64,000 bases of DNA, from contig NZ_BSTS01000021.1 in NCBI RefSeq assembly GCF_030269665.1, positions 1 to 64,000 on the forward strand, in the 5' to 3' direction. Origin of the DNA: Actinomycetospora sp. NBRC 106375 (GTDB taxonomy: Bacteria > Actinomycetota > Actinomycetes > Mycobacteriales > Pseudonocardiaceae). Below are positions 4,229 through 27,455 of this stretch, piece by piece. Under the pieces are notes generated by a model. That model was given only the letters and a program-made list of their open reading frames with translations. It did not search any database and was not told the origin of the DNA. Numbering within the stretch: the stretch's first letter is position 1; the number at the start of each line of letters is the position of its first letter. The position numbers were made by a program, and so were the translations under genes.

Positions 4229-5089
4229 CTAGATGAAGTCGCTGTAGTTCCATTCAATAGCGTCGTCCCATTGGCGCTCGAAATAACGTTCGAAGCCCCA
4301 ATAGAATGACTTTGTCTCCTTGCTTGCATCCTTTGAGAAGAATAGCTGTGGTACGGCCATTTCATCTTCGGTGCCATAAACATTGTACGAAAATACACAG
4401 ACGCGTTCGTTGATGAACATCAAGCGGAATAGCGTTGCGTTGTCGTAGAAGCGGACTTCGATGTCGAACTTGCGCTTCAACTTTAGGTCTGCAATTACTT
4501 GTAAACTTCCTTTCACGGCATCCGCGAATTGCTCCTCAGGCTTGTTGGCTCGCTGAGCAGCAGTTCGGAGATTGGCTGAATCGGGTCGACTCAACAGGAG
4601 ACGTACCGTATTGCCGCTTGCGGTGCATGCCGCAACGGTCTGCGCGAACGTATCAGCGTTGCTGGTTAGTTTGCTCGCGCCTGTACCTAGAAACGATAGT
4701 CCACTGGTACACGAACGCAATGCCTTCTTTGGGTGCAGTCCAGTCCTCATCTTTAGGTCTACTCCACCCACACCGACCCACCAGAACTTCAAGTAAGGCC
4801 ACGCTAGGCCGCCCGAGGTGACGAGAACCCCGGCGACAAGCAATACAATTCCGAGCCAGGGCGATTCGTTCCATCTCACGATTAGACTCGCGCTGATGGC
4901 GGACGCCAGGCCGAACACAACGAAGCCGAGCAGCTGAATGATCTTCGACCGACGCCGGCGGAGATTCTGGGTCCTACGCCTGCTTGTCCACAGGGCTCCA
5001 ATTAGGAAGCCAATTAGGTTGCTGGCGAGGTTGACTATCAGCGGAATGGCAATGTCGCCGGCGACACTGACACCCTGTTGGGCGGACAA
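4229..5089 (-). CDS. Membrane-anchored phospholipase-D-like protein, 286 aa
   Basis: Three hydrophobic segments occupy the N-terminal 100 residues (about 13-35, 49-68 and 76-97). The cytosolic C-terminal part (about 130-286) has the layout of a degenerate PLD-like domain, as in DUF5919-type proteins: a TFAQTVAACTASGNTVRLLL strand-helix-strand, a basic DLKLKRKFDIEVRFY strand, NATLFRLMFINERVCVFSY, and a final FYWGFERYFERQW helix. No HKD catalytic motif is visible, so it may sense or bind lipid or nucleotide rather than cleave. It lies 1 base after the HARE-Nudix gene and is surely co-transcribed. Its composition is AT-richer than the chromosome. In conflict systems such membrane proteins are usually killing effectors; that role is inference. 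A decayed homologue occurs at 10.04-10.43 kb. Confidence 0.65.
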   Translation of the reverse strand: MSAQQGVSVAGDIAIPLIVNLASNLIGFLIGALWTSRRRTQNLRRRRSKIIQLLGFVVFGLASAISASLIVRWNESPWLGIVLLVAGVLVTSGGLAWPYLKFWWVGVGGVDLKMRTGLHPKKALRSCTSGLSFLGTGASKLTSNADTFAQTVAACTASGNTVRLLLSRPDSANLRTAAQRANKPEEQFADAVKGSLQVIADLKLKRKFDIEVRFYDNATLFRLMFINERVCVFSYNVYGTEDEMAVPQLFFSKDASKETKSFYWGFERYFERQWDDAIEWNYSDFI

Positions 5090-5090
5090 G

Positions 5091-6002
5091 TTAGCCGAGA
5101 GCCTCTCGTTCGTGTGTGTAGATGAGCTCCGACCAATTCTCGAAGTCCTCTATGCGAGCGTCGATCTCACCTAGCGTCTCGAACTTGCTGTTCAGGAAGT
5201 TGCCGCGCTCCGCCACCGTGTATTCGGCACCACGCAGCTGGGCTTTATAGACAATCGCAAGGTGTTGGCGGCTAACTTCCCGTCGGTCGTCATAGATGAG
5301 ACCCAGATACTGGCAGGCAGGGACGTAACTGAGCGCCACCTCTTCTACTAGTTCGCGAGCAAGCGCAACGTATCCATCCCTAGGGTCGAAGGGATCGATC
5401 AGGCTTGATGCCGCCTCCGCCAGAGAGCCCGTTCGCGAAAGGTCTTCTGGCGTCACGTGACCGCCGAAGTTAAGCGAATACTGGCCCTTCAGCCGCTTCT
5501 CCGGTAGCCGACCACTACGCTGGAAAGTGAGGTAACGCCCTTCGAATTCGAGGACGAAGCTTGAGACAAGTTGGACTACCTCAGTGTCCCTCTCAGCATC
5601 CTCACGAAGAAGAGGCCTGCAATGTGACAACAGCTCGGAACCCGTCACTAAGGGCTCATGATTGAAGCCTGGCTGCTTGATGATGCTGTCGATCAATCCG
5701 ATGTCGAAGACAACCGCGTCTTCCTCCAACGGCGACTTCGAGAATCTCTCGGCGTGGAACTCGACTAGGACGTCGTCCCACTTCCGAAGAGCGAAGACGT
5801 TAGGCGCCGTCCGCATGAAGGCGGAGTCGTCCCTTCTTGCAAGAATATCGTCACTCAGACGTGCCTTCATGGTGTTCTCAGGGGTCTTGCCCTCGCTGAG
5901 GAGGTCCCCCTCGTCTACCGCGATACGAGCTAACTCTCTAGGGTGCATTGGGCGACCATGACGCTCTAAGACTTGCTCGGCCGCCCTGAGAAAGGTGGAC
6001 AT
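5091..6002 (-). CDS. HARE-HTH plus Nudix-domain protein, 303 aa
   Basis: Residues 1-75 are a HARE-HTH (HB1/ASXL-type winged helix): FLRAAEQVLERHGRPMHPRE, then MKARLSDDI and the APNVFALR wing. This fold is found in RNA polymerase delta and in restriction and conflict proteins. Residues 145-300 look like a Nudix hydrolase: strand LEFEGRYLTFQR, then SLNFGGHV (G180, G181) and the box remnant ARELVEEV (R216, E217, E220, E221). Spacing between the GG and the RE-EE is longer than the classic box. I chose ATG at 6002; GTGs at 6014 and 6023 are alternatives, and GGGGGAGG lies 11 bases before the ATG. It probably senses a nucleotide or modified DNA state and controls the PLD-like partner downstream. 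Confidence 0.7.
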   Translation of the reverse strand: MSTFLRAAEQVLERHGRPMHPRELARIAVDEGDLLSEGKTPENTMKARLSDDILARRDDSAFMRTAPNVFALRKWDDVLVEFHAERFSKSPLEEDAVVFDIGLIDSIIKQPGFNHEPLVTGSELLSHCRPLLREDAERDTEVVQLVSSFVLEFEGRYLTFQRSGRLPEKRLKGQYSLNFGGHVTPEDLSRTGSLAEAASSLIDPFDPRDGYVALARELVEEVALSYVPACQYLGLIYDDRREVSRQHLAIVYKAQLRGAEYTVAERGNFLNSKFETLGEIDARIEDFENWSELIYTHEREALG

Positions 6003-6048
6003 CGAGGAAACCACCTCCCCCACGGGCTAGCCTTACAGTCGCCTAATT

Positions 6049-6363: not shown

Positions 6364-7569
6364 ATCACAGCTGCGCAAGGTCACCAGCCTCCGCCGGAAC
6401 TGCGGTGTGCCGCTGGACCGCGAGTGCGGGGTGACGCTCGCGGTCACCGAGAACACCGACGACACGAGGGCCGCCGGCTACTCGGGGTTGGCGCCGGGCG
6501 GGTCGGTATGGCGCTGCCCGCAGTGCGCCGCGAAGGTCGCCACACGACGGGCCGATGAGCTGTCGAAGGTGATGCGTGCGGTCGACGAGGCCGGCGGCTC
6601 GGCGTTCCTGCTGACCTTGACGATGCGCCGCGACCGTGGCGACCGGCTCGGGCTCACGAAGGACGAGCGGGCGCAGCTGCGCCAGCTCAATGAGACCGCG
6701 CCGGCTACGAGGCGGCGAACGCGAACCGGTGGGACTTCGACGAGCACCAGGCCGAAGCCGATGCGATCGAGGAGAACACCCTGCGTCAGCGCAAGAGCTG
6801 CTGGGACGGTCTTGTCCGACGCCTGCTCGGGTCACCTCCGGTGGCGCGTGGAAGGCAGACTGAGAGCTGCTCGGGTGGGCGCCGGTCGTGGAGGTCGCCG
6901 ACGGCGACCACGGGTGGCACGTCCACATCATGCTCTGCTGTGCTTCGGCGATCCGGTCTCCGCCGAACTCGTCGCCGCTAGCGTGGGCGCGCGCAGGTTC
7001 TCCCGGTGGCGGTCCGCGTTGGAGCGCAAAGGGTTCGACGCCTCCGACGACCACGGGTGGGACCTGCGCCGCGTGCAGCTCGGGGACGGCGATCTGGCCG
7101 AGTACTTCACCAAGATCGCCCACGAGGTCACCGGCTCCCACCGCAAAGAGGGCCGGCGCGCCGGGGGCCGGACCCCGATGCAGCTGCTCGCCGACGCCGT
7201 CGACACGTACGAAAAGGCGGCGCTCGCGCGCTGCTGGGAGTGGGAACAGGCCTCCGAGCGCCGACGACAGCTCACCTGGTCCACCGGAGCCCAGGACCTA
7301 CGCAGGCCGGCTGAGCTGGCGGCCGAGGCCAGCGACGAGGACGTTGCCGCGAGGAGTTTGGCACGGATACCCGCGACGCAAGACCAGTCGACGACTGGAT
7401 ATGGCTCACGAACGCGGGCTACCCGGCACTGCTTCTATCCGTCGCAGAGGCTGGCGGCGCAGGCGCGGCCCTTGCGTGGCTCGCGACGAAGCGAGCAGTC
7501 TCGGGTCGACAAGCGCGGTGCCGCTGCATCTCGGAGTGTCCCGACGGGCTGTCGAACGTTGATCGATAG
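6364..7569 (+). pseudogene. Plasmid replication initiator (rep), decayed
   Basis: Fragments of an actinobacterial rolling-circle Rep lie in order but in three frames. First come LRKVTSLRRNCGVPLDRECG and GGSVWRCPQCAAKVATRRAD (Cys-pair motif) with LLTLTMRRDRGDRL. Then VTSGGAWKAD. Then WAPVVEVADGDHGWHVHIM, the HxH metal-binding motif. Then FGDPVSAELV through LAEYFTKIAHEVTG and RRQLTWST. Finally a tail DDWIWLTNAGYPALLLSVAE ending at TAG 7567-7569. At least four frameshifts separate these blocks. It marks a former autonomously replicating or AICE-type element. Its end overlaps the promoter of the EACC1/caspase pair, so that pair was inserted against, or grew out of, this remnant. Confidence 0.8.
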
Positions 7570-7587
7570 GATGCTCCCTGTTATGTA
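7559..7587 (+). promoter_or_regulatory. Promoter for the EACC1-caspase operon
   Basis: TTGATC (7559-7564) and TATGTA (7582-7587) are separated by exactly 17 bases, a good match to a sigma-70-type promoter. Predicted transcription would start near 7594, giving a leader of about 16 bases containing AGGAGA before the ATG at 7610. Confidence 0.6.
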
Positions 7588-7609
7588 ACGGGGCCTTGCG
7601 AGGAGACCG

Positions 7610-8008
7610 ATGGTGTCGACGACGATCGTCGTTCACGTTGAAGTTGTTGAGAACGATAAGCCGTTTCGCACTGTGGACCCACAGGACTTTCTTCAAGACG
7701 CACTCTTAAGCAAGATTGGGGACGTACGACGAGCTACTCGACGTCTTCCGCAGTCGCCTGGAGCGAAATCAGCGACCTACGACGTTGTCGCAACAGTCGC
7801 GGTCACACTCTCCACGGTAGGAGTTCCCGCGTTCGTCCGACTAGTACGAAACTATCTTGATCGACAGAAGGCGCGCCATATCAAGCTAACAGTAGATGGC
7901 AATACGATCGAGATTGATGCGTCAAGTAGACGGCAGCAGGACGCTGCTCTGCGAGCATGGATCGAAGCCAATCGAGCCGTTGAGAATGATTCGACAGAGA
8001 CTCAATGA
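7610..8008 (+). CDS. EACC1-like effector-associated protein, 132 aa
   Basis: The length, a central hydrophobic helix (about 57-79, YDVVATVAVTLSTVGVPAF) and the C-terminal strand set HIKLTVDGNTIEIDASS with a closing amphipathic helix match the effector-associated constant component EACC1. That family was described in actinobacterial conflict systems by Kaur, Burroughs, Iyer and Aravind. In those systems EACC1 is encoded next to a protease or other effector and is thought to connect it to a trigger. Here its TGA overlaps the ATG of the caspase gene (ATGA), so the two are translationally coupled. The ATG at 7610 follows AGGAGA. Base composition is AT-richer than the backbone. Family recognition is by eye. 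Confidence 0.65.
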   Translation: MVSTTIVVHVEVVENDKPFRTVDPQDFLQDALLSKIGDVRRATRRLPQSPGAKSATYDVVATVAVTLSTVGVPAFVRLVRNYLDRQKARHIKLTVDGNTIEIDASSRRQQDAALRAWIEANRAVENDSTETQ

Positions 8009-9792
8009 GCAATCGTCGCAAGGCCCTGCTTATCGCTTGCGACACCTTCGACGACGATGAGCTAGAGGATCTCCACTCCCCGGTGTCGGATGCCGAGCGC
8101 CTCAAAGCCGTTCTAGGAAGAGAGGATCTAGGGGATTTTGATGTACACCTCCTCTCGAATCCCCACCTGAGCGATCTTCACGAGTCGATTTACGACTTCT
8201 TCAATAGAGCGAGCCGAACTGATGTACTCCTCCTTTTTCTCTCCGGGCATGGCCTCCGGGATCACAGAGGTAGGTTCTACTTCGGTGTGCCCACTACCAA
8301 GCCCGGCGCCTTGCCTCCGACGGCTCTCCCTGGCAGTTTCCTCAAGGACCAACTAGAGGACACACTTTGCCAGCAGGTTGTTGTCATTCTAGATTGCTGC
8401 TACGCGGGTGCGTTCGCGAAGGATCTAGACGGCAAGTCCGCTTCAGACCTCTCGGCGGTGGCTGTCGAGGAGTTCGAGGGCCACTGTAGAGCAATCCTGA
8501 GCGCCTCTAGTGCGGTTCAGATCGCTCTGGAGGGGCTAGACGACGAGAGTGGCGAAGTCGTCTCAGTCTTCAGCGCAGCGCTCGCCGGAGGGATTGAGTC
8601 GGGAGACGCGGACCTTAACGGAGATGGTCTTGTCGGGGTCGAGGAGCTCTTCTCGTACACAAAGAGCGAGATCAAGCATCGGCGGGCCCCTCAAACTCCT
8701 GAGATCAGGGTTTCTGGTATCGACGCGAATCTGACGATATCGAAGGTTCCGTCGACGACTGGCGACATCACCAGGGACGAGTCGGTGCGTCACGCAATGA
8801 CGAGCAAGCACCACGAGCTCCAACGCGCCGGCCTTATGGTCGTTCGACGACACTTGGCTGCTGGGGCTCAGATCGACTACCAGGCTGCGCAAATCCTAGT
8901 CTCTCCCATGGTCTCTAGCGAGAGCCGGGAACTCCGCAGGGAAGCGCATCGGACCTTGCAAGGCTTTCATGTCGCTCAGGCGGTGACCGTAGATCGAGTA
9001 CCTCGCGAATTCCACGTGAAATCTCTCCGGGTAGACACCCAGAAGCTGAGGGCGGCATTGAATCGTGCCGAGGCGTTCGCCTCAGTTGACTATAAGCCAG
9101 ATACCTTGGTGGTCAACGAAGTCCGCATCTTCTCTGGCTCCGGCCGCGGTGTCGTTGCGAGCGGTACGGACGGATTTCGAATGAGCCTTGAATTTGTCCC
9201 CGCACCTGGCGGCTCCTTCGTATTCGACGAGATTTTGCCCCGTGGAACGGCCGACATGATACATACGTCTTCGCCATACACGGTCATCTACAAGTATCGC
9301 GGAGTTCTCTTCTTGCTCGGAGAATCTGACCGTCACGGGGTATCCGTCCCTACCCTGAAGCACAGATTTCCTCGTCTTGCAAGGATTGTCGTTGGCCGAT
9401 CGCGCCAGAATCCGGGATTTGAAGTAGAGGCCGCCGCTATCCGCGTCGCGCTTGAGCAGCTCGAGGCTCAGCGTAGTCCCGGGGATCGCAGCCTGGCTTC
9501 GACTGTACTCGCCAAGATCGACGGCGCGACCCTCAATTTGGAGATGGATAGGGGTCCAGTCTCAATAGCAATACCGGTCCTGTCTACATCAGAGGATGTC
9601 GAAGACGTCTACCTGAACATGAATTACTTGCACGATGTCGTCACGTGGTTCCCGAGTGACGGTCGCTTATGGTTTGAAGTCGTCGGCTCCGCACGCCCAC
9701 TTGCGGTAAGAGATCGAGCGCTCTCAGGGCGTCGGGCAATATTGATGACTATGCAGCCGCCGGAAACGACCCTCACAAAGTTCAGATTCTGA
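8005..9792 (+). CDS. Caspase-like protease fused to a sliding-clamp (DnaN)-like region, 595 aa
   Basis: Residues 1-225 are a caspase/metacaspase (peptidase C14) domain: KALLIACDTF start, catalytic His82 in FLSGHGLRD, catalytic Cys132 in ILDCCYAGAF, and an EF-hand-like calcium loop DADLNGDGLVGVEEL at 201-215. Residues 255-325 are helical. Residues 337-465 resemble DnaN domain 2: DTQKLRAALNRAEAF, then VVASGTDGFRMSLEF, ILPRGTADMI, and LKHRFPRLARIV, equivalent to the clamp 'RLLxxEFPxYR' turn. Residues 470-587 resemble domain 3: FEVEAAAIRVALEQL, ATLNLEM, VYLNMNYLHDVV, RLWFEVV, AILMTMQP. Clamp domain 1 is missing. I infer a protease unleashed or positioned by replisome components. Coupled to EACC1 upstream. 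Confidence 0.75.
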   Translation: MSNRRKALLIACDTFDDDELEDLHSPVSDAERLKAVLGREDLGDFDVHLLSNPHLSDLHESIYDFFNRASRTDVLLLFLSGHGLRDHRGRFYFGVPTTKPGALPPTALPGSFLKDQLEDTLCQQVVVILDCCYAGAFAKDLDGKSASDLSAVAVEEFEGHCRAILSASSAVQIALEGLDDESGEVVSVFSAALAGGIESGDADLNGDGLVGVEELFSYTKSEIKHRRAPQTPEIRVSGIDANLTISKVPSTTGDITRDESVRHAMTSKHHELQRAGLMVVRRHLAAGAQIDYQAAQILVSPMVSSESRELRREAHRTLQGFHVAQAVTVDRVPREFHVKSLRVDTQKLRAALNRAEAFASVDYKPDTLVVNEVRIFSGSGRGVVASGTDGFRMSLEFVPAPGGSFVFDEILPRGTADMIHTSSPYTVIYKYRGVLFLLGESDRHGVSVPTLKHRFPRLARIVVGRSRQNPGFEVEAAAIRVALEQLEAQRSPGDRSLASTVLAKIDGATLNLEMDRGPVSIAIPVLSTSEDVEDVYLNMNYLHDVVTWFPSDGRLWFEVVGSARPLAVRDRALSGRRAILMTMQPPETTLTKFRF

Positions 9793-11831: not shown

Positions 11832-14800
11832 TTATGCGTCGACCTCGTCGAGGTCATCGACCTCGCCTGGGTTCGAATCGCCCACCGGCTCGCTCGAGTC
11901 GTCGGAGCTTTCCACTGCCTGGTCGCGGGCTTGCCATTGCGCGAGTTGCGCCTCGCGATGTTCGGATTCAGCTCTCGCGTCGCCGTCTTCGCGCGCACGC
12001 ATCTCCGCGAGGGCGCGGTTGGCCTTCTCGACCGCGGCCGAGGTCTCGTCGGCGGTGGGTACGCGCACGTGGTCTTCGGCGACAGGGCTCGGCTCTGACG
12101 TGGCCACCTCGCGAATGTCGGGTTCCGACGGCTCGATATCCGTTGGCTCGTCAGATGCGGGATCGACCCGGCCGGTCTTGTCGTCGTGCTCCTCGGCGTC
12201 GGGTCCGAGCTCGTGGAGATCCTCTGGTCGGCTGGTGACGTCGTCCTCGGTGACGTCGCGATGGGCCTCGTCTTCCGAGATGGCGGCTCGGTGCGCGGCG
12301 AGCCACTCCGCGGCGGTGGTGCGTTGCTCGGGCTCGGCGTCGTCGACGTGGCGAGCGGCGAGCTCGGCCTTGGCGCGCTCCGCAGCGGACCGGGTGCCCG
12401 CGGTGTGGGCCAGCCACCGCGAGCGTGCCTCGTCGAGCGCGTCGAGCTCGGTAGCTCGCGCACTGAGGGTCGTGGCGAGCGTCGAGGTCTGGTCGGCTTC
12501 GGCGCTGAGCCTGTGTCGTTCGTCCGGGTCGGTGGCGGCGTCGGCTTCGGCGCGGCGGAGCTGGGCGTCCTGGTCGGCGCGCGTCGCGGCTTGGTGGGTG
12601 CCGGCGAGCTCGTTGGCGACGTAGCGGGGCGCCCATGCGGATTCGCGTTCGTGGGCGCGTACGCGGACGCGGAGCTGACCGTCCGACATTTCGAGTTCTT
12701 CGCGGTCGATCTCGGGACGTCCGAGCGCGCGCCAGGCGGCTCGGTAGGAGGCGTAGGCCTCGACCTTGCCTGGTCCGGGCGCGGCGCCGAGGGCGTCCTC
12801 GGCGTCGTCGTAGCCGCTGAGCTCGCGCCACGCAGCGACCGTGCTCGCGCGGTCCTGCCATTGATCGCGTTCGGCGAGAGACTCGGGTACCGGTCCGAGG
12901 GCGTCGGTCAGCCACGTCGGCGAAGTGGATGCGAGCTCTTCGCCGAGCTCGGCGCTGCGTCGGTCCGCCGCATCGGCAAGGGCGGTGAGGTACTGGTCCC
13001 AGTCGGCCCGCCCGGTGCTCGGGGTCCAGTCGGCCCAGCTGCGGCCGTCGGGATCGAAGGTGTGGGCGTCGCGGATGCGGCCGTGGACGACGTTGGTGAG
13101 GTTGCGGGCCCCGTCGAGCGGCCGATCGGTGACCGCTTCGCGCAGGACGTTCTCGGGGTCGCGACCTGCGATCTCAGCGCGGCGCAGGATGCGCGTCAGT
13201 GAGACGGCGCCGTCCTCAGCGGCGAGTCGGGCGCGGTCGTGGCCGGTGATAGTGCCCTCGGCGACGAGCTGGTCGAGCCAGCGTCCGGTGCGCTCGGTGG
13301 CGGCCAGGTGCGCGGCATCGCTGAAGAGCTCCCCGGCCGTGCGAGTGCTGCCCGACTCCGTCGCGGACTCGGTCGCGGTCGTGAGTGCGGAAACGGAAGC
13401 GCCGCCGTCGTCGCGGGTGACGATCCCGGCCATCACGGCGACCGGGTCGCGGTGCAGGGAGTGGTCTACGTGCGAGCCGTCGGCGGGGTCGACCGGCCCG
13501 TTGATGGTCGCCACGTGGGCGGTGTTGGCCTCGCGGCCGCGGGTGAGCCCGACGTAGCTCGCGGCTCGGCTGGTGCTGGGGCCGGCGACGAAGTGGCTGG
13601 TGTCGACGGTGAGGCCTTGGGTCGCGTGGACAGTGCCGGCGTAGGCGAGCGTTACGTCGGCGTCGACGTACTCGCGGGGCAGCACCATCGGGTCACCGAG
13701 CACTTCGCTGCCCTCGTTGTCGCGGCCGTGGACGGGGGCGACGGTCAGCGAGCCGTCGTCGCCGATACCGGTGACGCGGTAGGTCTCCCGGTTGATCGGG
13801 CCCCGTCGGTTGACGTGGTCGCCTGTGTCGGTCGTGGTGCGGTGTCCGGCAAGCTCCCAGCCGTTGCGGCGGGCGGCGACGAGGTCCCCGACGCCGGCGT
13901 CGTTGCCGTCCCGTCCGAGCACCACCCCGTGCTCCTCGACGCGTCCGAGGCGCACCAGTTCAGCGCGCAGCGCGCCGGCAAGGCGATCAGCCTGGTCGTT
14001 GGTGTCGACCACGAGCACCGAGCGGCGCCCGGCCAGGGTGTCAGCGAGCCAGGCGCGGCTGGCGGACGCCTCGGCGTCGTCGAGGGTGCCGGCGTCGATC
14101 AGGCGCCCGTGGCGTTGGTAGTCGCGCAGCACGCTCTCATCGCCGTCGCGCAGGCGCAGTGACGCCGGCCCTTCCCAACCTTCTCGGAAGCGGCGGGTCT
14201 CGGTGAGCTCGTAGCGGGCTCCGGCGTGGGCCAGCAGGTCCATCGCCCCGCCGGCTCCGACGGCGGCGAGCTGGCGGTGGTCGCCGACCAGCAGGAGCTT
14301 GGCGTCGGCGGCCTCGACGTGCTCGCAGATTGCAGCCAGGGCCGTCGTGTCGGTCATCGCGGACTCGTCGACCACGACAAGGTCGCCCGCTCGCAGCCGC
14401 CACGCCGAGGCGTCGTCGACCTTCGCACCCTGGGCGAGCCGGTCCTGTGTGTCGAGCCAGCGCTTGACGTTGCGGGCGTCAAGTCCCTCGTCGGCGAGGA
14501 CTCCGGCAGCGATCTGGCTGGTGGCGAGCCCGAAGACCCGCCCAGCAGCGGCGCCGCGGAGCTCGGGATCGGACCATGCTCTGGCGAGGGTGCCGACGAC
14601 GAAACTCTTCCCGGTGCCCGCGGGGCCGACAAGGGTCTCGATCCGCGCGCCGGAGGTGAGCACCCCGCGGACAGCGGCGACCTGGTCCACGCCGAGCTCG
14701 CGGCCGGATTCCCGAAGCTGACCGAGGAACCGGTCCGCGACAGCGGACGGGGTCGCGGCGGCGTCTCCGCGACGGGCGGCAGCGGTCATCGCGCGTTCGG

Positions 14801-16301
14801 TGTGGACGTGGTCGGGGGTGGCATAGAGCTTCGCGCCCGGGGCGTCGTAGGCCGGCCGGCCATTGGCCAGGCGCAGCTCGTCGGGCAGGGCGTCGTCGCC
14901 AGGACGGGCCGCGTCCAACGGGGTGGAGAGCGCGAGGCCCTCGTCGGTGAGCCAATCCAGCAGGCCCGCGACGTCCTCTCCGCTGGTCAGGCCGAGCGTG
15001 TCGGGCAGAGCGTCGTTCACCGCACGGGTCAGGTCGGCGCGGGTCCAGGCGGCCTTGCGGGTCTGCACATCGGCCAGGGCGGTCTCCAGGACCTCGCGCG
15101 GGGACCACTGTCCTGCAGCCGGCGGGTCCTGCTCGCGGGCACCGAGGACGGCCTCGGCGACGCCGCGCAGTCCGCCGGCGACCTCGTTCCGGAGCTGGGC
15201 GTCGATGCGGTCGAGGAACTGGGTGCGGGTCTCGCCCTCGTGCGACTTGGCGCGGCGGGTGGCCAGGGTGGCTTGGCGGGAGAGCCGGTCGCGTTCCAGG
15301 CCGTTGGCCTCGCGGCCGTGGTGGGCCTCGAACTCCGCGATCAGCTGCTCGGCCTTCTCCGACAGCGCACGTCGGCGCGACGAGAGCAGGTCAGTCACCG
15401 TGTCGTCGATGCCGATGACCTCGCGCGCTTTCCCGTCGGGACGCATGGCCAGCTTCAGGCCGAGCGCGTGAGCGAGGTGCTCCTCGGTGGTGCGCTCCCC
15501 CACCGCGGCCGCCGCCGGGCGGAACTTGTGGATCGCACGCGAGTCCAGGGTGCGCCACTCGTCGTCGGTGTCGCCCGGGGCTCGGTTGAGGATCGGGTTG
15601 TGGACGTGGAGCTGCGGGTCGTGGTCGCGGGAGTCGTGCTGGAAGAACGACGCCACGACCCAGCCGTGCGCGTCGACCCACCGCCCGGCGGCGCCGCCGT
15701 GATGTCCGACTCGGGCGTAGCCGGCCTTGTCCTGTAGGTAGGACAGGGCGGCGTTGTTGCCCGCCCAGATGGCGTCCTCGACCGCCTGGCGGTACTCGCC
15801 CCACGCCGCTGCCGTGTCCTCGTCGCCGGCGTCCCGGGCTGTGACCTCCTCGGCCTCGAACGCTGTATGCAGCACAGTGACGCTCTTCTGAATGCTGAAC
15901 GTGGCGTCCAGGAAGTCGACGTTGTGGCGAGCCTGCTTGCCTGCCTCGACCTGGAGTTCAGCGCGTCGTTCAGCCGAGGCGTCGGGCTCGTGTTCAAGCG
16001 CTGAGGCGTACAACTCGTCCTCGGTCGCGTAGCGGCGCCCGGTGTGACCGAGGGTCGGGACCTCGTCCCATCGCTGCGGGTCGGCGAAGCCCTCGTGGCG
16101 GGGGTCGAGGAACCGCTCGTAGATCCCGCGCATGTCCTGGGCGTCGACGAGCCCGCTCAGACCGAGCTTCTCCGCGCCGGCGCCCCACCAGCGACCCGGC
16201 GGCTCGCCGTCGGTGACCGCACCGGTGTAGTAGGACTCGCGGCCCATCGCGACCTCGTTGAGCAGATAGTCCGGCGAGTATCCGGAGGCGACGCTCAGCA
16301 T
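11832..16301 (-). CDS. traA: MobF-type conjugative relaxase-helicase (TraA/TrwC-like), 1489 aa
   Basis: This would nick the transfer origin and unwind the strand that is moved. The N-terminal relaxase domain has the paired tyrosines Tyr24-Tyr25 (RESYYTG) and the metal site FQHDSRDHDPQLHVH with H222, H232 and H234. A helicase domain follows: Walker A GPAGTGKSF at 559-567, Walker B with VVDESAMTD, and later motifs VLVVDTNDQADRL and YAGTVHATQGLT, as in TraI/RecD-type enzymes. The C-terminal about 400 residues are charged, helical and probably coiled coil. The start ATG overlaps the stop of the small gene at 16295-16594. It is the last gene of the transfer operon. Domains are intact and the length is within the family range. 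Confidence 0.9.
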   Translation of the reverse strand: MLSVASGYSPDYLLNEVAMGRESYYTGAVTDGEPPGRWWGAGAEKLGLSGLVDAQDMRGIYERFLDPRHEGFADPQRWDEVPTLGHTGRRYATEDELYASALEHEPDASAERRAELQVEAGKQARHNVDFLDATFSIQKSVTVLHTAFEAEEVTARDAGDEDTAAAWGEYRQAVEDAIWAGNNAALSYLQDKAGYARVGHHGGAAGRWVDAHGWVVASFFQHDSRDHDPQLHVHNPILNRAPGDTDDEWRTLDSRAIHKFRPAAAAVGERTTEEHLAHALGLKLAMRPDGKAREVIGIDDTVTDLLSSRRRALSEKAEQLIAEFEAHHGREANGLERDRLSRQATLATRRAKSHEGETRTQFLDRIDAQLRNEVAGGLRGVAEAVLGAREQDPPAAGQWSPREVLETALADVQTRKAAWTRADLTRAVNDALPDTLGLTSGEDVAGLLDWLTDEGLALSTPLDAARPGDDALPDELRLANGRPAYDAPGAKLYATPDHVHTERAMTAAARRGDAAATPSAVADRFLGQLRESGRELGVDQVAAVRGVLTSGARIETLVGPAGTGKSFVVGTLARAWSDPELRGAAAGRVFGLATSQIAAGVLADEGLDARNVKRWLDTQDRLAQGAKVDDASAWRLRAGDLVVVDESAMTDTTALAAICEHVEAADAKLLLVGDHRQLAAVGAGGAMDLLAHAGARYELTETRRFREGWEGPASLRLRDGDESVLRDYQRHGRLIDAGTLDDAEASASRAWLADTLAGRRSVLVVDTNDQADRLAGALRAELVRLGRVEEHGVVLGRDGNDAGVGDLVAARRNGWELAGHRTTTDTGDHVNRRGPINRETYRVTGIGDDGSLTVAPVHGRDNEGSEVLGDPMVLPREYVDADVTLAYAGTVHATQGLTVDTSHFVAGPSTSRAASYVGLTRGREANTAHVATINGPVDPADGSHVDHSLHRDPVAVMAGIVTRDDGGASVSALTTATESATESGSTRTAGELFSDAAHLAATERTGRWLDQLVAEGTITGHDRARLAAEDGAVSLTRILRRAEIAGRDPENVLREAVTDRPLDGARNLTNVVHGRIRDAHTFDPDGRSWADWTPSTGRADWDQYLTALADAADRRSAELGEELASTSPTWLTDALGPVPESLAERDQWQDRASTVAAWRELSGYDDAEDALGAAPGPGKVEAYASYRAAWRALGRPEIDREELEMSDGQLRVRVRAHERESAWAPRYVANELAGTHQAATRADQDAQLRRAEADAATDPDERHRLSAEADQTSTLATTLSARATELDALDEARSRWLAHTAGTRSAAERAKAELAARHVDDAEPEQRTTAAEWLAAHRAAISEDEAHRDVTEDDVTSRPEDLHELGPDAEEHDDKTGRVDPASDEPTDIEPSEPDIREVATSEPSPVAEDHVRVPTADETSAAVEKANRALAEMRAREDGDARAESEHREAQLAQWQARDQAVESSDDSSEPVGDSNPGEVDDLDEVDA

Positions 16302-16594
16302 CCGGACGACCTCGCGAAGATCGACCGCGGCAACGCCGCGAGGGCGTCGATCGATTGCTGCTCTTCCGGCCGGCCGCAGGCCGGCCCGGACCCTCGGATC
16401 GTGATGCCTAGGTGTGCGTCTCTTGATCTTTCCCTTGATCTTTTCGTCTTGGTGTCTTGTTGGTCGTGTCTTGTCGTCTGTTCGGCGTAGTGATCGGTGT
16501 CGGGAAGTGGTCCTGGTTCTGTCGTTGGTTCTTGGCTCTTGTTCTTGCTCTGGTTGTTGCTCGTGGTCGTGGTGATCGGTGGCTGGGTGGTCAT
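16295..16594 (-). CDS. Small basic protein coupled to the relaxase gene, 99 aa
   Basis: The ATG at 16594 overlaps the TGA of the DUF2637 gene (ATGA). Its own TGA overlaps the relaxase ATG by 7 bases, so it fits exactly between two genes of the operon; this coupling is the main support. The N-terminal half is Thr/Gln/Lys-rich and low-complexity, with lower GC. The middle KTKRSRERSRDAHLGITIRG is basic, and the tail PACGRPEEQQSIDALAALP is more ordinary. A DNA-binding accessory role at the transfer origin would fit the position but is a guess. It could also be a translated spacer with no function. Confidence 0.55.
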   Translation of the reverse strand: MTTQPPITTTTSNNQSKNKSQEPTTEPGPLPDTDHYAEQTTRHDQQDTKTKRSRERSRDAHLGITIRGSGPACGRPEEQQSIDALAALPRSIFARSSGC

Positions 16595-17403
16595 GGGTGG
16601 GCCTCGTCGGTCGTGTCGGTGGGGTCGGTTTCGGCGGTGTTGATCAGCCGGAGGGGCAGCGGCCGGTCGCGCAGCGCCTTGAGCGCGGCCGCCGCGGTGC
16701 CGCGAGAGACCTCGGCGGCAGTCTCGAGCTCGGTGACCGTCGGCCAAGCCCCGTGGCGCTGGGCATGGCGGGCGGCGGCGGTCTCGGCGCGGTCGCGGGC
16801 CGGTGAGGCCACCGGCCGCGGCGGCGGACCACCCGCCGCGTCGTCCCCATCGCCTTCGGGATGGTCGGGGCCTCCGGGCGCGCCGGGGCCGAGCTGAACA
16901 GCGCCCGCGAGGGTGTTCGGCTGAACGTCGGGGGCGTTGAACGACCCGGGCTGAACGCTGCCGGGCTGAACGGTGACCCGATGAACGTCGCGGGGGGGCT
17001 GGTCGACGGCGAGGAGGTAGAGCAGGTGGGCGACCACGGCGGCGGCGACCGCGGGCCAGGCGCCGACCCCGAACCGCAGCGCGGGGGCGACCTCGACGGT
17101 GGGCCCGCCGGCGAGGTAGGTGGCCTGCCCGAGTCCGGACAGCCCGGCCGCGGTGACCACCACGGTCCAGGCGTAGCCGGCGGCGCTGCCGCGCAGCCGG
17201 GCGGTGGCGCCGTAGGCAACCAGCGCGAGCCCGTCAGTGATCAGCGGGTAGAGCCACGCGATCCCGCCCGGCACCCGCGCCGCGACCGCGACCTCGAACA
17301 ACCCGTGCGCGGTGGCGACCGCGGCACCCAGGGCGACCGCTAGGCCCGGTAGCCACAGCACGGCGGCGCGCCCACCGGGGCGGGCAGCTCGGTTCTCGAC
17401 CAT
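16591..17403 (-). CDS. DUF2637 membrane protein, 270 aa
   Basis: Residues 14-130 hold four hydrophobic helices (LGAAVATAHGLFEVAVAA, WLYPLITDGLALVAYGAT and two more). They have the layout of DUF2637 proteins, common in actinobacterial plasmids and integrative elements and often called Spd-like or transfer-associated. A proline-rich linker follows. The last about 60 residues look like a winged helix-turn-helix: ARHAQRHGAWPTVTELETAA, then SRGTAAAALKALRD. The stop overlaps the start of the next small gene. It probably links the membrane to DNA during spread of the element; no enzyme motif is present. Confidence 0.75.
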   Translation of the reverse strand: MVENRAARPGGRAAVLWLPGLAVALGAAVATAHGLFEVAVAARVPGGIAWLYPLITDGLALVAYGATARLRGSAAGYAWTVVVTAAGLSGLGQATYLAGGPTVEVAPALRFGVGAWPAVAAAVVAHLLYLLAVDQPPRDVHRVTVQPGSVQPGSFNAPDVQPNTLAGAVQLGPGAPGGPDHPEGDGDDAAGGPPPRPVASPARDRAETAAARHAQRHGAWPTVTELETAAEVSRGTAAAALKALRDRPLPLRLINTAETDPTDTTDEAHP

Positions 17404-17409
17404 CGAGCA

Positions 17410-17817
17410 TCACTCCGCGCCTGCGTCAGCGGCGGCGTGGGTGCTGTCCTCGCCGACGCTCTCCTCGCCGGCGCGGTCCTGGGCGTGCCAGCGAGCGAGC
17501 TGCTCGCGTCGGTCGTGGTCACCGTCGGCTGACGCGTCGCGGGCGTCAGCCGAGCTGCGGTGTGCGGCGCGGCCGGTGGAGGGCCGTCGTGCCGGGTCGC
17601 GTACTGGGTCGCGTGCTGCCCGTCGGTCGAGGTCGGCGACCGCCCGGCGCAGATCGTCCAGCGAGCCGCAGAAGCAGTGGAACTGGCCCGGGGCGATCGC
17701 GTTCCAGTGCGCGAAATAGATCTGGCTGAGCCGGTCGAACTCGGCGCGTTCCGCGGCCTCCCGGGCCCGCTCCTGAGCACGGGTCTCAGCCTCAGTTCCG
17801 GCGCGATCTGGGGTCAT
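17410..17817 (-). CDS. Hypothetical protein of the transfer operon, 135 aa
   Basis: Its start overlaps the DUF4913 gene stop by 4 bases, and it ends 6 bases before the DUF2637 gene. An Ala/Glu/Arg-rich helix (AQERAREAAERAEFDRLSQI) leads into YFAHWNAIAPGQFHCFCGS, with two Cys and nearby Asp residues, then LDDLRRAVADLDRR. The tail RREQLARWHAQDRA resembles the RAQLARWHDEDH motif in the operon protein at 18551-19417 and a similar EAQLAQWQARDQ in the relaxase tail, suggesting a shared interaction motif. No known domain is recognised. Confidence 0.6.
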   Translation of the reverse strand: MTPDRAGTEAETRAQERAREAAERAEFDRLSQIYFAHWNAIAPGQFHCFCGSLDDLRRAVADLDRRAARDPVRDPARRPSTGRAAHRSSADARDASADGDHDRREQLARWHAQDRAGEESVGEDSTHAAADAGAE

Positions 17818-18563
17818 CGCGACCAGCCCTTCCGATCGCCGTTCACCGCGGCGCTGATGCCCGAGCCGTCACGGCCCGCGGCGTTTCGGGAGCTCTCGGG
17901 GTTCTCCGACGCTGGTTCGGGTGGGGGCTGGTCGCGGGCATCGGCCCACCACCGGGCGATCGCGGGTGCGGCGTCGACCCCGGGCACGGGGATGGCGCCG
18001 GTGGGTGTGGTGTTCCAGCCGGGGCGGGTCTGGTGACGTTCGCGGGAGCAGGACCCGACGGTGGTCTTGAGCCGGCGCACCACGCCGGGGCGTTGGCGGT
18101 CGTGCCAGTCCCCGGCGAGCTGCACCGAGGCGCCGCGGTCGTCGTAGGCGGCGCGCCAGGCGTGGGAGAGCCACAGCAGTTCCTCGATCACCTCGGGGTG
18201 CCAGAGCCAGCACTCGGGCAGCACCGCCGCGCCGTCGGGGTAGCGCAGGAACACCGTGTGCAGCCACCGGCACAGCTCCTCGAGCAGACCCGTCAGCGCT
18301 TCGCCGTCGCCCGGGGCGGTCAGCCACGACGGCGCCACCATCGGACCTGGCCGGGCCGGGGTGGCGGCGAGGGCGTCGGCGAGCTGAGCGACGGTGCGCG
18401 CCAGGTCGTCGACCCGGGTCGGGGTCCCGACCAGCACCTCGAGGCCACGGCGCAGCCCGTCGACCTCACGCGCCAGCCCGGCCAGGGCCTCTACTCGAGC
18501 GAACTCGCCCCCACCGTCGCCGGCCGTGGGCGGGCCGGGCGGTCGGCGGGTCACCGACCCCAC
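17814..18563 (-). CDS. DUF4913 protein, 249 aa
   Basis: The core, residues about 95-200, matches DUF4913: LLEELCRWLHTVFLRYPDGA, CWLWHPEVIEELLWLSHAWR, then DWHDRQRPGVVRRLKTTVGS and a conserved Cys-Ser-Arg-Glu-Arg-His. Members occur almost only in actinobacterial conjugative elements, next to TraA/TraD genes. The N-terminal 80 residues are variable and carry a helical VDGLRRGLEVLVGTPTRVDD stretch. It overlaps the next gene by 4 bases and the upstream gene by 13, so it is deep inside the operon. Molecular role unknown; the W/H-rich core hints at nucleic acid or protein binding. Confidence 0.75.
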   Translation of the reverse strand: MGSVTRRPPGPPTAGDGGGEFARVEALAGLAREVDGLRRGLEVLVGTPTRVDDLARTVAQLADALAATPARPGPMVAPSWLTAPGDGEALTGLLEELCRWLHTVFLRYPDGAAVLPECWLWHPEVIEELLWLSHAWRAAYDDRGASVQLAGDWHDRQRPGVVRRLKTTVGSCSRERHQTRPGWNTTPTGAIPVPGVDAAPAIARWWADARDQPPPEPASENPESSRNAAGRDGSGISAAVNGDRKGWSR

Positions 18564-19417
18564 CCCGCTGTCCCGAGACCGTCCCCGCCGTCATCGGTCT
18601 CCGGGAGGGAGTCGAGATCGGCGCGGGTGTCGGTGGCGCGGTGATCCTCGTCGTGCCAGCGGGCCAGCTGAGCGCGCCGCTGCTCATCCTCGTCGGGCAC
18701 GCTCCCCGCCGCCTGCGCGGCTCGTGAGGTGCGCAGGTTCTCGATGCGTTGGCGCAGCCGTTCGGGGTCGTCGGGGGCTTCGAGGTACCCGCTGTCGTGC
18801 GCTCGGCTCGGGTCGCAGGTTCCGGCGGCCCAGGCTCCGGTGGAGGGCCACCACCGTCCCTGGGTGTTGAGGAACGGGCCATCGCGATCCTCGGCGGGGT
18901 GATCGTGGGCGAGGTCGCCGCTGGTGGCGCCGCCGTCTCGTCCGTCGAAGGCGGACCCGGCTGTCGGGTCATCGCGAACGATCTGATCCTCGTGCTGCCA
19001 GTTCGTGACGGCGAGGGTGTCCGGCGCGCCGTGCCCGTCACGGGGGAGGTCATCGAGCGCGTCGTGTGCCGGTGGCGGCGCGAGACCCTCGAGACCGAGC
19101 AGCCGTTGGTACTCGGCCCAGGCGTAGGGGTCGTGATCGTGGGCGCGGTCGGAGAGCACCGCGCGCTCGGCGGCGTCCTCGAGCGCGTCCTCGCCCGCAG
19201 TCGGCGGCCGCGGCGTCCATCCAGTGATCGGTGCCGCGTGCTCGGCGAGCCACGTGGTGCGGGCGGTCGCTTCGGCATCGGAGGCCGGTTCGCGCCAGTC
19301 CGGGTCGCCGTACTCGGCGGCCGGGTTGTAGGCCCTGGACAGGTCAGGCCGGTTGTCGAGGTAGGCCTCATGTTGGGCGGCGGTCCAGCCCGCGGGGCCC
19401 TGCCGTGGGTGGCTCAT
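18551..19417 (-). CDS. Hypothetical protein of the transfer operon, 288 aa
   Basis: I chose ATG 19417 because it overlaps the TraD stop (ATGA), giving translational coupling. An in-frame start 9 bases earlier is less likely. The protein is hydrophilic, acidic and rich in Asp, Glu and Pro, with no membrane helix. It contains scattered Trp residues (PAGWTAAQHEAYLDNRPDLS, WAEYQRLLGLEGL). The end, RRAQLARWHDEDHRA, shares the QLARWH-x-x-D motif with two other operon proteins. It is probably an accessory protein that binds the transfer machinery. No family is recognised. Confidence 0.6.
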   Translation of the reverse strand: MSHPRQGPAGWTAAQHEAYLDNRPDLSRAYNPAAEYGDPDWREPASDAEATARTTWLAEHAAPITGWTPRPPTAGEDALEDAAERAVLSDRAHDHDPYAWAEYQRLLGLEGLAPPPAHDALDDLPRDGHGAPDTLAVTNWQHEDQIVRDDPTAGSAFDGRDGGATSGDLAHDHPAEDRDGPFLNTQGRWWPSTGAWAAGTCDPSRAHDSGYLEAPDDPERLRQRIENLRTSRAAQAAGSVPDEDEQRRAQLARWHDEDHRATDTRADLDSLPETDDGGDGLGTAGWGR

Positions 19418-21339
19418 TGCAGCCACCTCTCGTCACCGCGATGGTTGGGGTCGTGGTCGCCGAGGACGGGCGGTGCGGCCGGCTCGACGTCGATCACCAG
19501 CGGCGGGCGGGCGTCCGAAGGCCTACGGGGCGCTGGCACCGTCGTCCTGCTGCTGCGCGAACGGGCCGCGCGCCGCCACAGGTCCGCGCTGCGAGCCCGC
19601 CATGTGCGGTGCCGCGGGGTCGCGACCCGTCGTAGCCCGGCGGTCAGGCCGACCTCGAGCCAGGCGCGGGCGCGTAGCCCACGGCCCCGCAGACCCGCGG
19701 CCGGCTGCTCGCGGAGGGCGCGGACATCGGGGCGGGTCCAGGCCATCCGGGCCCGCCCGATCACCGGGGCGATCCCGCGCCGATACACGACGACCTTCCC
19801 GGCCGGCAGGTTCGCCAGCTGCGCCGGCGCCAGCACCGGCACCTTGCGCACCGTGCGGCTGGCGACGCGCCCGTGCAGGTCGGTGGTGGTGATGCGCTCG
19901 TCGCGCTCGCCCGCGAGGGTGGACCAGAACTGCAGGTCGTCGCGGTCGCGGGTGCCGCCGAACAGCATCACCGAGCCGGTGTTGTTCAGGATGGTGGCGG
20001 TCTTGTGCTCCCCGTAGCGGGCCAGCAGCTGGGCGCGGGACTGGAACGGGGCGATGATGGTGACCCCGCGCCCGCCCATGTCCGCGGTCCAGTTCTCCAG
20101 CGGCACCGGGCTGATCAGCGCCGCCTCGTCCAGCGCGAGCAGCAACGGCGGGTCCAGCCGGCCGGCGGGCTTTGCGGTGGCGAGCCGTCGGGCCTCGCGG
20201 GCGATGTGCCCGGTCAGCGCACAGACCAGTGGTCCGGTGTCGGCCTCCTCGGCACCGAGCAGAAACACCGTCGCCCGCGACTCGAGCAGCGCCTCGACGT
20301 CGAAGGGCTGGTCGGTGGGGGCGGCGGCGGCCGCGGCGTCGGGATGGTTGAGCCACCCCAGCGCCGGCATGATCGAGTTGGTGATCGAGGTGCGGGTGCG
20401 GTCGTTGGTGGTGACGAACTGCTCGGCCGCCTTGTCGAACGTCTCCACCGCAGAGCGCCGGAGCAGGGCGGGGACTTCGCGGGCGGCGCGGTCGTTGTCG
20501 GCGACCCAGCCGAGCACGTCGCGCATCGACCCACCCCCGAGCGCCGCCGCATGCAACAGGGCGGCGAGGACCCGGCGAGCCTGGGCGTCCCACCGCTCCG
20601 CATCCCCATGACTGGCCCGGGAGGTGGCGGCGACCATGTCGGTGGCCCGCTCCACCGCGGTCACCGGATTGGCACACCCGGTCAGCGGGTCGAAGCCGAT
20701 CGTGGAGCGGATACCGCCCAGCCCGACCGGGTTGAACACGAACACCGGCCCACGGGACTTCTGCCGGATCGGGGCGCACAGCTCCAGCAGGTCGGTGCGC
20801 GTCGAGGTCACCACCGCGGCGCCGGGGGCGTCGAGGACGCGGCCGGCGAGCCAGCCGGTCTTGCCCGTGCGCGGGCCGCCGAACACGAGGGTGACGTCCT
20901 CGATCGAGGACCAGACTCGCTGCGCCCCGACCCGGCACAGCTCCACCCCCACCGCCGAGGTCGGGGTCGCCCAGCCGTCCCGGCGGGTCAGCGACCCCAG
21001 CGACGGGCGCACCGTCGCGGCCCGACGGCGCGTCGCCACCGTGCCGGCTTGGCGGGCCACGTCGAGGGTGGAGGCCACCCCGGCGCGGCGGCGTGACCGG
21101 GCTGACCAGCGGGTGATCGTGGCCCGTGATCGCGACCAGCGGTGCCACACCACCACCGCCAGCACGACGGCGATGGCGAGCAGCGCGGGCCAGGACAGGG
21201 CCTTCAGCAGCGTGGTGGCCGGCAGCCCGGCCAGCGCCCCACAGCACACGGCGTGGCGGACCGCGCCGCGCAGCACCAGCACCACCGCCGCTGCGAGCAG
21301 CCCGACCAGGATCAGGAACGTAGCGATCACCGCGACCAC
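19414..21339 (-). CDS. Type IV coupling protein (TraD/TraG-like ATPase), 641 aa
   Basis: This ATPase would bring the relaxase-bound DNA to the transfer channel. Two hydrophobic helices at residues 2-25 and 40-65 anchor it. Walker A is GGPRTGKTGWLAG, followed by VVTSTRTDLLELC. Walker B is LLALDEAALISP, then GVTIIAPFQSRAQLLARYGE, the TraM-recognition (TraG/VirD4) region, and LFGGTRDRDDLQFWSTLAGE. Length and order fit actinobacterial TraD/TraG proteins. The C-terminal 100 residues are basic and variable. Its presence with a MobF relaxase implies single-strand conjugation rather than the TraB/FtsK double-strand mode of Streptomyces AICEs. Confidence 0.88.
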   Translation of the reverse strand: MVAVIATFLILVGLLAAAVVLVLRGAVRHAVCCGALAGLPATTLLKALSWPALLAIAVVLAVVVWHRWSRSRATITRWSARSRRRAGVASTLDVARQAGTVATRRRAATVRPSLGSLTRRDGWATPTSAVGVELCRVGAQRVWSSIEDVTLVFGGPRTGKTGWLAGRVLDAPGAAVVTSTRTDLLELCAPIRQKSRGPVFVFNPVGLGGIRSTIGFDPLTGCANPVTAVERATDMVAATSRASHGDAERWDAQARRVLAALLHAAALGGGSMRDVLGWVADNDRAAREVPALLRRSAVETFDKAAEQFVTTNDRTRTSITNSIMPALGWLNHPDAAAAAAPTDQPFDVEALLESRATVFLLGAEEADTGPLVCALTGHIAREARRLATAKPAGRLDPPLLLALDEAALISPVPLENWTADMGGRGVTIIAPFQSRAQLLARYGEHKTATILNNTGSVMLFGGTRDRDDLQFWSTLAGERDERITTTDLHGRVASRTVRKVPVLAPAQLANLPAGKVVVYRRGIAPVIGRARMAWTRPDVRALREQPAAGLRGRGLRARAWLEVGLTAGLRRVATPRHRTWRARSADLWRRAARSRSSRTTVPAPRRPSDARPPLVIDVEPAAPPVLGDHDPNHRGDERWLQ

Positions 21340-21725
21340 CCACCCTCACCGGACCGCAGACCCTGAGAGCCCTCGGGGCCGGGCTGGTTGGTGGTGTCGG
21401 TGAGCCAATAGCCACCCGCCGGGTGAGCGAGCTCGAAGCGGGCACCGTCCCCGATGATGCGTCGCGCCCAGCGTTGGGCGTCGTCGTCGGTCATCGGCTC
21501 ATCGGTCCGCCCCCGCACCACCCCGTCGATGAGCAGCGCCCAGGTGATCGGGCCGCCGCACGGCGCGTCCCCGAGCTCCAGCCCCAACGCGGTCTTCGCG
21601 ACGTCGGCGCGGACCAGCTCGATCCCCAGCAGCAGCGGCAGCGTCGCGTGCACCCGCTCCCCCAACCTCGACACCCCGCTCGAGGTCCCGTGGGTCGTAG
21701 CGGTGGTCGTTCTGCGGCTACGCAT
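21327..21725 (-). CDS. Hypothetical protein, 132 aa
   Basis: The ATG at 21725 is chosen because GAGGAGGGAGGAC lies just upstream; longer frames have no such site. The protein has a basic N-terminus (MRSRRTTTATT), then LGERVHATLPLLLGIELVRADV, then ALLIDGVVRGRTDEPMTDDDAQRW and GARFELAHPAGGYWLTDT. It looks like a small alpha/beta fold. It overlaps the upstream gene by 8 bases and TraD by 13. Unknown function, restricted to the operon context. Confidence 0.6.
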   Translation of the reverse strand: MRSRRTTTATTHGTSSGVSRLGERVHATLPLLLGIELVRADVAKTALGLELGDAPCGGPITWALLIDGVVRGRTDEPMTDDDAQRWARRIIGDGARFELAHPAGGYWLTDTTNQPGPEGSQGLRSGEGGWSR

Positions 21726-22266
21726 CAGGTCCTCCCTCCTCGTCATCGCGCGCTTGTCGCTGCCAGGCCTCGAGCGCCGCGAGACGGCGGGCGCAGTCGT
21801 GTTCATGGCCGGCTTCGCGGTCGTCGGGGTGCGAGGCGAACGGGCCGCGATCCCGCACCCGAGCCCGGCAGGTGGTGCACGTCCACACCGCCGAAGCCAG
21901 CCCGGTGCCAGCTCTCGGGGGTGGTGGTCGGTGCTCGACCAGCCACTCCCACGCCGCCTCGCCGCGCGCCTCTCCGCCGGCGTCGGCCGGGAGCTCGAGG
22001 GCGTGGCCGACGGCGTCCCAGCTGTGTCCGGCGCCGCGGGCTCGCAGCGCGCAGTCGCGCAACGCGCCGTGCGCGACCTCGGCCACGAGCCGCCCTGCCC
22101 GCACCCCGGCCAGCGGGTCGGTCAGCACCGGACGCGACACCCCGTGGAAGCCCTCGATCGGCTCCCGGTACTCGGTCGTGTCGAACGCGGTGACCGCGAC
22201 CCGCCGGACGTGCTCGCGGGTCGACCACGCCGCCTGCTCGCGGCGGGACACCTCCAGCCCGCTCAC
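21718..22266 (-). CDS. Hypothetical zinc-ribbon-like protein, 182 aa
   Basis: The first 110 residues are helical, with GFHGVSRPVLTDPLAGVRAG and AGHSWDAVGHALELPADAGG; the latter resembles a helix-turn-helix-like 'SW-x-x-[IV]G' segment. The end holds VWTCTTCRARVRDRGPF, then H and EAGHEHDCARRL, which gives Cys-x2-Cys plus His/Cys ligands for a zinc site. The ATG start overlaps the WhiB-like gene stop by 4 bases. A regulatory or DNA-binding role is likely given the motifs, but no named family fits. Confidence 0.6.
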   Translation of the reverse strand: MSGLEVSRREQAAWSTREHVRRVAVTAFDTTEYREPIEGFHGVSRPVLTDPLAGVRAGRLVAEVAHGALRDCALRARGAGHSWDAVGHALELPADAGGEARGEAAWEWLVEHRPPPPRAGTGLASAVWTCTTCRARVRDRGPFASHPDDREAGHEHDCARRLAALEAWQRQARDDEEGGPDA

Positions 22267-22742
22267 CGCGGCCCACCTCCCGCAGCATCAGTCGTCTGCG
22301 TCGGCGAATGCTCGAGCTGCGTGGTCTGTGCGGTGGGGTTGCGGGCCGCCCACCGGGCGATGGTTCGAGGGCTTACTCCGTACTCGGCCGCCACCTCCGG
22401 CTGCGAGCAGCCAGCCTCGAGCAGCACCAGCCACCGCGGCTTCCGCGCACCCGCGTGATCGCCGGACCGTCCGCCGGGATGTTCGTGCTGTGCCCGGGCT
22501 CGTCGACGCTCCTGCTCGGTCATCCCGCCCGCGATCCCGTGCGGCATCCGCTCGAGCGCCTCGGCCAGGCAGCGCTCACGCACCGGGCAGCGCCGGCACA
22601 CCGCCTTCGCCGCCTCGACCTGCCGGCGCACCAACGGCTCATCCAGCGCGCCGTCGCGAAGTTCGTCGGTGGCTTCCGGGAAGAACAGCTCCGGGTCCAC
22701 GCCCCGGCACGCGGCCAGAGCCTGCCAATTCTTGTCAGTCAT
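22263..22742 (-). CDS. WhiB-family iron-sulphur regulator with extra HTH, 159 aa
   Basis: WhiB proteins bind a 4Fe-4S cluster and partner with sigma factors. The four ligands are Cys12, Cys49, Cys52 and Cys58 (ACRG, then VCRRCPVRERC), and the turn is GIAGG at 69-73, followed by an RRRARAQ basic helix. Unusually, residues 100-130 add a helix-turn-helix (SQPEVAAEYGVSPRTIARWA). The start at 22742 overlaps the ssb stop by 8 bases and places the first ligand at the normal distance. Mobile elements of actinobacteria often carry such WhiB genes, likely to control transfer genes in this operon. Confidence 0.85.
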   Translation of the reverse strand: MTDKNWQALAACRGVDPELFFPEATDELRDGALDEPLVRRQVEAAKAVCRRCPVRERCLAEALERMPHGIAGGMTEQERRRARAQHEHPGGRSGDHAGARKPRWLVLLEAGCSQPEVAAEYGVSPRTIARWAARNPTAQTTQLEHSPTQTTDAAGGGPR

Positions 22743-23910: not shown

Positions 23911-24035
23911 CGCTGACTCCTCGCTGCGGACGCTGGCCCGACATGGCGGCGTCTGTGCATCGAGAGTCAGGGAGGGAGTCGATGCCAGTCATCGATCCTT
24001 GCTGGCGGCCAGTGGTGGACGGTGAGGCTTAAGGG

Positions 24036-24053
24036 ACTTGCTTGCGCGCAAGT
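24036..24053. promoter_or_regulatory. Inverted repeat, likely operator
   Basis: ACTTGC and GCAAGT form perfect 6-bp arms around TTGCGC; the inner TTGCGCGCAA is itself palindromic. It lies between the divergent xis and the HTH gene, about 70 bases from the latter's ATG, and fits a dimeric repressor site. Confidence 0.5.
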
Positions 24054-24119: not shown

Positions 24120-24121
24120 CT

Positions 24122-27446: not shown

Positions 27447-27455
27447 GACCTGCGG

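Follow-up and report, generated by a model that had tools for sequence, protein, structure and literature searches.

The locus at 7610..9792 of the DNA analysed here (64,000 nucleotides from Actinomycetospora sp. NBRC 106375, contig NZ_BSTS01000021.1, positions 1 to 64,000 of the forward strand; hereafter the window) encodes a two-gene module in which a gene for a small EACC1 adaptor of membrane type precedes a gene for a caspase-like protein of 595 residues. We are nearly certain that this module has the anatomy of an EACC1-caspase system in which the tail of the second protein is a two-domain remnant, comprising domains 2 and 3, of a bacterial sliding clamp. As to function, we see about an even chance for the explanation as a whole, in which the locus would be a conflict module whose clamp tail docks clamp-binding motifs as a sensor or tether. 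The features of the locus are as follows:

7610..8008, + strand: EACC1 gene, 132 amino acids (PF19953, E 7e-6, 26.4 bits versus a cut-off of 23.6)
7781..7837, + strand: hydrophobic stretch of EACC1, residues 58-76, a probable membrane helix (Kyte-Doolittle mean 1.74)
8005..9792, + strand: caspase-clamp fusion gene, 595 amino acids (list of open reading frames (ORFs), sequence)
8014..8712, + strand: caspase (Peptidase_C14) domain, residues 4-236 (PF00656, E 5.9e-16; NF047832)
8248..8250, + strand: codon of the presumed catalytic His82 (GHG motif; invariant among 10 aligned caspases)
8398..8400, + strand: codon of the presumed catalytic Cys132 (DCCYA motif; invariant among the same 10)
8605..8628, + strand: EF-hand-like acidic loop DADLNGDG, residues 201-208 (sequence)
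8779..8958, + strand: helical linker, residues 259-318, common to the Micromonospora protein P0002 (identity to P0002; AlphaFold2 helices)
9022..9399, + strand: clamp domain 2-like part, residues 340-465, inner boundary approximate (phrog_947 from profile position 127; alignment to E. coli DnaN)
9400..9762, + strand: clamp domain 3-like part, residues 466-586 (phrog_947 to profile position 366 of 368; alignment, with VIA reaching E. coli clamp residue 366)
9166..9183, + strand: pocket motif TDGFRM (E. coli T172-L177; alignment)
9616..9627, + strand: pocket motif NMNY (E. coli N320 and Y323; alignment)
9736..9759, + strand: C-terminal pocket motif AILMTMQP (covers E. coli V360-R365; alignment)

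Residues 325-595 alone matched phrog_947, a family of phage DNA polymerase processivity factors, with an E-value of 1.7e-7 over profile positions 127-366 of 368, a span that corresponds to the second and third of a clamp's three domains. Together with the alignment to E. coli DnaN, this bore out the order of domain 2 followed by domain 3 that an earlier reading of the letters and ORFs (the sequence-only reading) had proposed. Its statement that domain 1 is absent also held, as the match starts at profile position 127 and the residues upstream are those of the caspase and helical linker, which leaves no room for a full DnaN domain 1 hidden there. A hidden Markov model (HMM) of domains 2-3 built from 53 clamps scored the window tail at 17.1 bits, versus 10.3 for the top of 232 decoys (200 shuffled sequences, 3 reversed tails and 29 tails from other caspases, the set including 18 locus tails, all from + strand matches). 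Ranking the window tail with 75 real caspase tails by the clamp HMM placed two Micromonospora proteins, P0014 and P0002, at the top with 58.8 and 53.0, followed by the window at 15.7, P0003 at 10.4 and all others at no more than 2.6. For this ranking ORFs were picked by a caspase HMM, giving 69 caspase ORFs in 68 loci, to which 10 proteins designated P were added; 65 of the 67 non-window locus tails were at least 150 amino acids long and were used, with repeats kept and 23 of them ending at the locus edge. The phrog_947 match, its absence from all nine other caspases scanned, and the ranking of real tails rule out a chance resemblance to a clamp. In hhalign the single-sequence window half aligned with the clamp over 228 columns at 21.8% probability, above every decoy, and TIGR00663 matched the window protein weakly (E 0.17).

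Structure prediction gave a divided picture. In the full-length AlphaFold2 model built from alignment A2, the predicted local distance difference test score (pLDDT) was below 50 almost throughout residues 323-595, and all Protein Data Bank matches among the 50 listed were caspase-fold proteins. A second AlphaFold2 model, built from alignment A4, gave a predicted clamp fold; as A4 includes clamp rows, this fold match is not independent evidence, and the end of window domain 2 is out of register in that alignment.

The peptide pocket of the clamp comprises 18 residues according to the accessible text of the review PMC11139829. Nine of them are identical between E. coli DnaN and the window protein (T172, G174, R176, P242, R246, N320, Y323, M362 and M364), and at a further six (L155, H175, L177, V247, V344 and V360) the window carries residues like those of other clamps. 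Similarity to at least one of eight reference clamps was found at 16 of the 18 pocket positions versus 136 of the 211 others (p 0.038), while in strongly conserved columns identity to the clamp consensus was found at 6 of 13 pocket and 10 of 57 other positions (p 0.06). The same trend was seen in P0014, P0002 and four MerR fusions described below, with p-values from 0.0003 to 0.17. This suggests, to a modest degree, that the partner-binding part of the clamp is the best-kept part of the tail, and with its pocket largely retained the tail could plausibly bind clamp-binding motifs.

The remainder of the module conforms to an EACC1-caspase pair. The product of the 5' gene scored above the Pfam cut-off for EACC1, as the sequence-only reading had claimed of the caspase's partner, and residues 58-76 form the hydropathy maximum of this protein over 19 residues and its single such stretch; EACC1 is described as a single transmembrane helix protein in the accessible part of PMC7159879. 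The two genes overlap by four bases, the stop codon of the first and the start codon of the second sharing ATGA. A complete His82-Cys132 dyad had likewise been proposed and is present, and by domain and dyad the fusion N-terminus is a caspase-like protease with predicted proteolytic activity. NF047832, the NCBI model of EACC1-associated caspases, scored the window protein at 135.8 and 138.7 bits in two scans against a cut-off of 140, and the sole PADLOC match was its general caspase model (E 2.2e-7). D203, D207 and G208 of the EF-hand-like loop are invariant in caspase alignment A2, and Pfam returned no EF-hand match in the window protein. Caspases of the EACC1-associated type are common among sampled relatives, being found in 108 of 394 genomes at E 1e-10 and in 71 of the 394 above the curated cut-off.

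In the accessible part of Kaur et al. 2020 (eLife 9:e52696), System 4 is described as an upstream EACC1 gene followed by a second gene with an N-terminal caspase and a variable C-terminal domain. The window module shares all three traits, the variable domain being here a two-domain sliding clamp; the terms 'sliding clamp' and 'DnaN' occur nowhere in the main text of that paper or in that of PMC8195603, as far as these were accessible. With DnaN the window tail shares domains 2 and 3, the fold as predicted and the larger part of the pocket residues; it lacks domain 1, and E. coli Pro363, Arg365 and Arg152 are replaced.

A clamp without domain 1 is also found in four MerR-clamp proteins, in which clamp domains 2-3 replace the C-terminal part of a MerR regulator and the clamp HMM match starts near domain 2. 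Three of these (L087, L088 and L089) scored above the Pfam cut-offs for both the MerR helix-turn-helix and clamp domain 2, and the fourth (L086) matched clamp domain 2 and, weakly, MerR. A weak match to the Pfam model of clamp domain 1 coincides with the residues assigned to domain 2, as may be expected of clamp domains, which are related to one another. Like the window protein they appear to keep the pocket, whereas their N-terminus is of a DNA-binding type where the window protein has a caspase. These proteins indicate that a two-domain clamp exists as a module outside replication, and no title or opening of an abstract among the matches listed in our literature search concerned MerR-clamp regulators. 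SocB-type toxins bind the clamp, acting through its peptide pocket; the window protein resembles the clamp instead, and both would act via the pocket. Several sampled genomes have, in addition to dnaN, a second or third clamp-like gene, for example G077 and G113 (three PF02768 matches each).

The check for other caspase-clamp fusions that the sequence-only reading had called for yielded P0002 (598 amino acids) and P0014 (597 amino acids), found by homology search and sharing the architecture and length of the window protein; here they are known from the proteins alone. With the window protein they bring the fusions found to three. The caspase and helical part of P0002 is 41% identical to the window protein, up to residue 318. 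Both Micromonospora proteins match phrog_947, and in each of them clamp domain 3 scores above its Pfam cut-off. The identity between their two clamp halves is 65%, and they are no nearer to the window's half than ordinary clamps are; hhalign of the window half against either did not rise above decoys. Because the window half and the Micromonospora halves are no nearer each other than other clamps, the clamps of the window and Micromonospora fusions may, judging from their sequences, have been captured independently. In a tree the window half was placed beside the MerR-clamp fusions at weak support values (41 for this placement, 83 for the wider group), apart from the halves of P0002 and P0014; the approximately unbiased test did not reject a common origin of the three tails (p 0.35), so that the tree decides neither for one fusion event nor for several.

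Relatives of the window clamp half itself were sparse. A search of 5.8 billion proteins, in which the 7998 candidates with most common words were scored, returned the query alone at E 1e-3, and scans of genome contigs found no relatives. Among 61 related genomes the matches were the query itself and two short ones of about 50 residues each (L002 and L003, E 0.008), and in phages tblastn yielded a single hit, at E 6. Surveys with P0014 as query covered 394 genomes from the class, 40 from one genus and 341 from one family, and a survey with the window protein covered 249 genomes from the family to which the window belongs; apart from the window self-match and one in genome G931, the matches listed end at or before query residue 339. 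The G931 match reaches query residue 392, which lies in the clamp half, but its 834-amino-acid ORF had no clamp HMM hit, and by this test it is not a fourth fusion. The caspase-clamp fusion seems rare; only 3 to 5 first-look candidates were scored in most surveyed genomes, so some fusions may have been missed. P0002 and P0014 bear the names of EACC1-associated caspases in their source, where precomputed Pfam annotation lists a clamp domain, so the architecture is visible in databases. We found no discussion of it in the literature, which agrees with the sequence-only reading, to which no description of such a fusion was known, within the coverage of that search, from which most subscription papers and preprints fall out.

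Docking of clamp-binding motifs is, to judge from the pocket, probably the biochemical job of the tail, and we give somewhat less than an even chance to the view that this docking serves to sense replication proteins. As domain 1 is absent, the usual DnaN ring would not form, which points to a docking module rather than a processivity factor; ring formation or sliding on DNA by the window tail is unlikely. The tail would dock motifs of replication proteins (polymerases, the clamp loader or phage equivalents), most likely as a sensor or tether, and capture of a motif-bearing protein, such as a phage polymerase or a host polymerase that a phage takeover has set free, would bring the caspase and EACC1 together at the membrane and activate the caspase. 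The activated caspase would then cut its targets, and the cell or the replication fork would stop. That the caspase reads the state of DNA replication, with a pocket-only clamp as the bait that triggers membrane-associated EACC1-caspase death or shutdown, is a tentative proposal that we regard as rather doubtful. Besides binding of phage or host polymerases, the sequence-only reading had offered displacement by a phage clamp as the trigger, which is unlikely as worded because a tail without domain 1 would have only one of the two sides of the ring interface. Should the tail indeed dock replication proteins, the system would represent a novel means by which an immune protease of bacteria monitors the replisome. 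As its fold and type of ligand are known, the question of whether it is a sensor, a released effector or a substrate exosite is directly testable.

Several points weigh against a docking sensor. Arg365, invariant in the eight reference clamps, is Gln in the window protein, Pro363, present in all eight, is Thr, and at this position and that of Arg152 the window residue is similar to none of the eight. The pocket statistics are modest (p 0.038 and 0.06 for the window, and 0.17 for similarity in P0002), and constraints of the fold could be the source of pocket conservation. Identity of the window half to the clamps compared is about 20-23%, with a maximum of 23.5%; no sequence evidence links the window system to a phage; and no experimental work on EACC1 systems was found in the literature searched, so far as its text was accessible. 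In the accessible text of Kaur et al. 2020, moreover, EACC1 is proposed to sense, autoproteolysis to follow and the C-terminal domain to be the effector, while in EACC2 systems the variable C-terminus takes part in sensing, according to the accessible part of PMC8195603; the clamp tail suits either scheme.

Under an effector scheme of the kind proposed for EACC1 systems, EACC1 would sense a membrane event and the caspase would cut itself in the linker at residues 318-340, freeing a two-domain clamp that, as a dominant-negative competitor, occupies clamp-binding motifs and stops replication. Such a competitor would be expected to look as the window half does, without domain 1 yet with most pocket positions kept, and the linkers of all three fusions contain basic residues, which would fit cleavage after Arg or Lys, the specificity expected of these proteases. 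The MerR fusions, however, use a two-domain clamp without any protease to free it, and we consider effector release unlikely. Less probable again is that the clamp half acts as an exosite through which motif-bearing polymerases, of host or phage, reach the caspase and are cut; the pocket evidence and the His-Cys dyad would suit it, but related caspases have unrelated C-termini, so the exosite role would be special to the window protein. The strong divergence from known clamps, and the lack of any match of residues 325-595 to the Pfam clamp families, would fit a structural relic, a scaffold or oligomerisation domain that binds no replication protein; as conservation is higher in the pocket than in the remainder of the half, we regard this as improbable.

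The locus probably lies within an integrated mobilisable element, of which the following putative parts occupy 11832-27529 of the window:

11832-16301: TrwC-type relaxase
19414-21339: coupling protein
22735-23313: SSB
25988-27361: phage-type integrase, adjoining the tRNA-Thr
27454-27529: tRNA-Thr, the likely attachment site

Neither a second copy of the tRNA-Thr (any of at least 15 bases) nor the left end of the element was found in the window, at whose first base the contig starts. Third-position G+C is 0.50 to 0.67 in the genes at 4229-6023 and 7610-9792 and at least 0.80 in most other called genes, which fits recent acquisition of the former. The two low-GC genes at 4229-6023, on the - strand, are possibly a second accessory module; one encodes a HARE-HTH protein whose C-terminal part matches phrog_8902, and the other has no clear family and hydrophobic N-terminal stretches. 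The same accessory stretch includes a Hypoth_Ymh (PF09509) protein at 957-2237 (E 1e-25). Directly upstream of the EACC1 gene, an ORF at 6407-7588 matched phrog_11698, of unknown function, in two stretches, and by eye it looks like a decayed replication-initiator gene.
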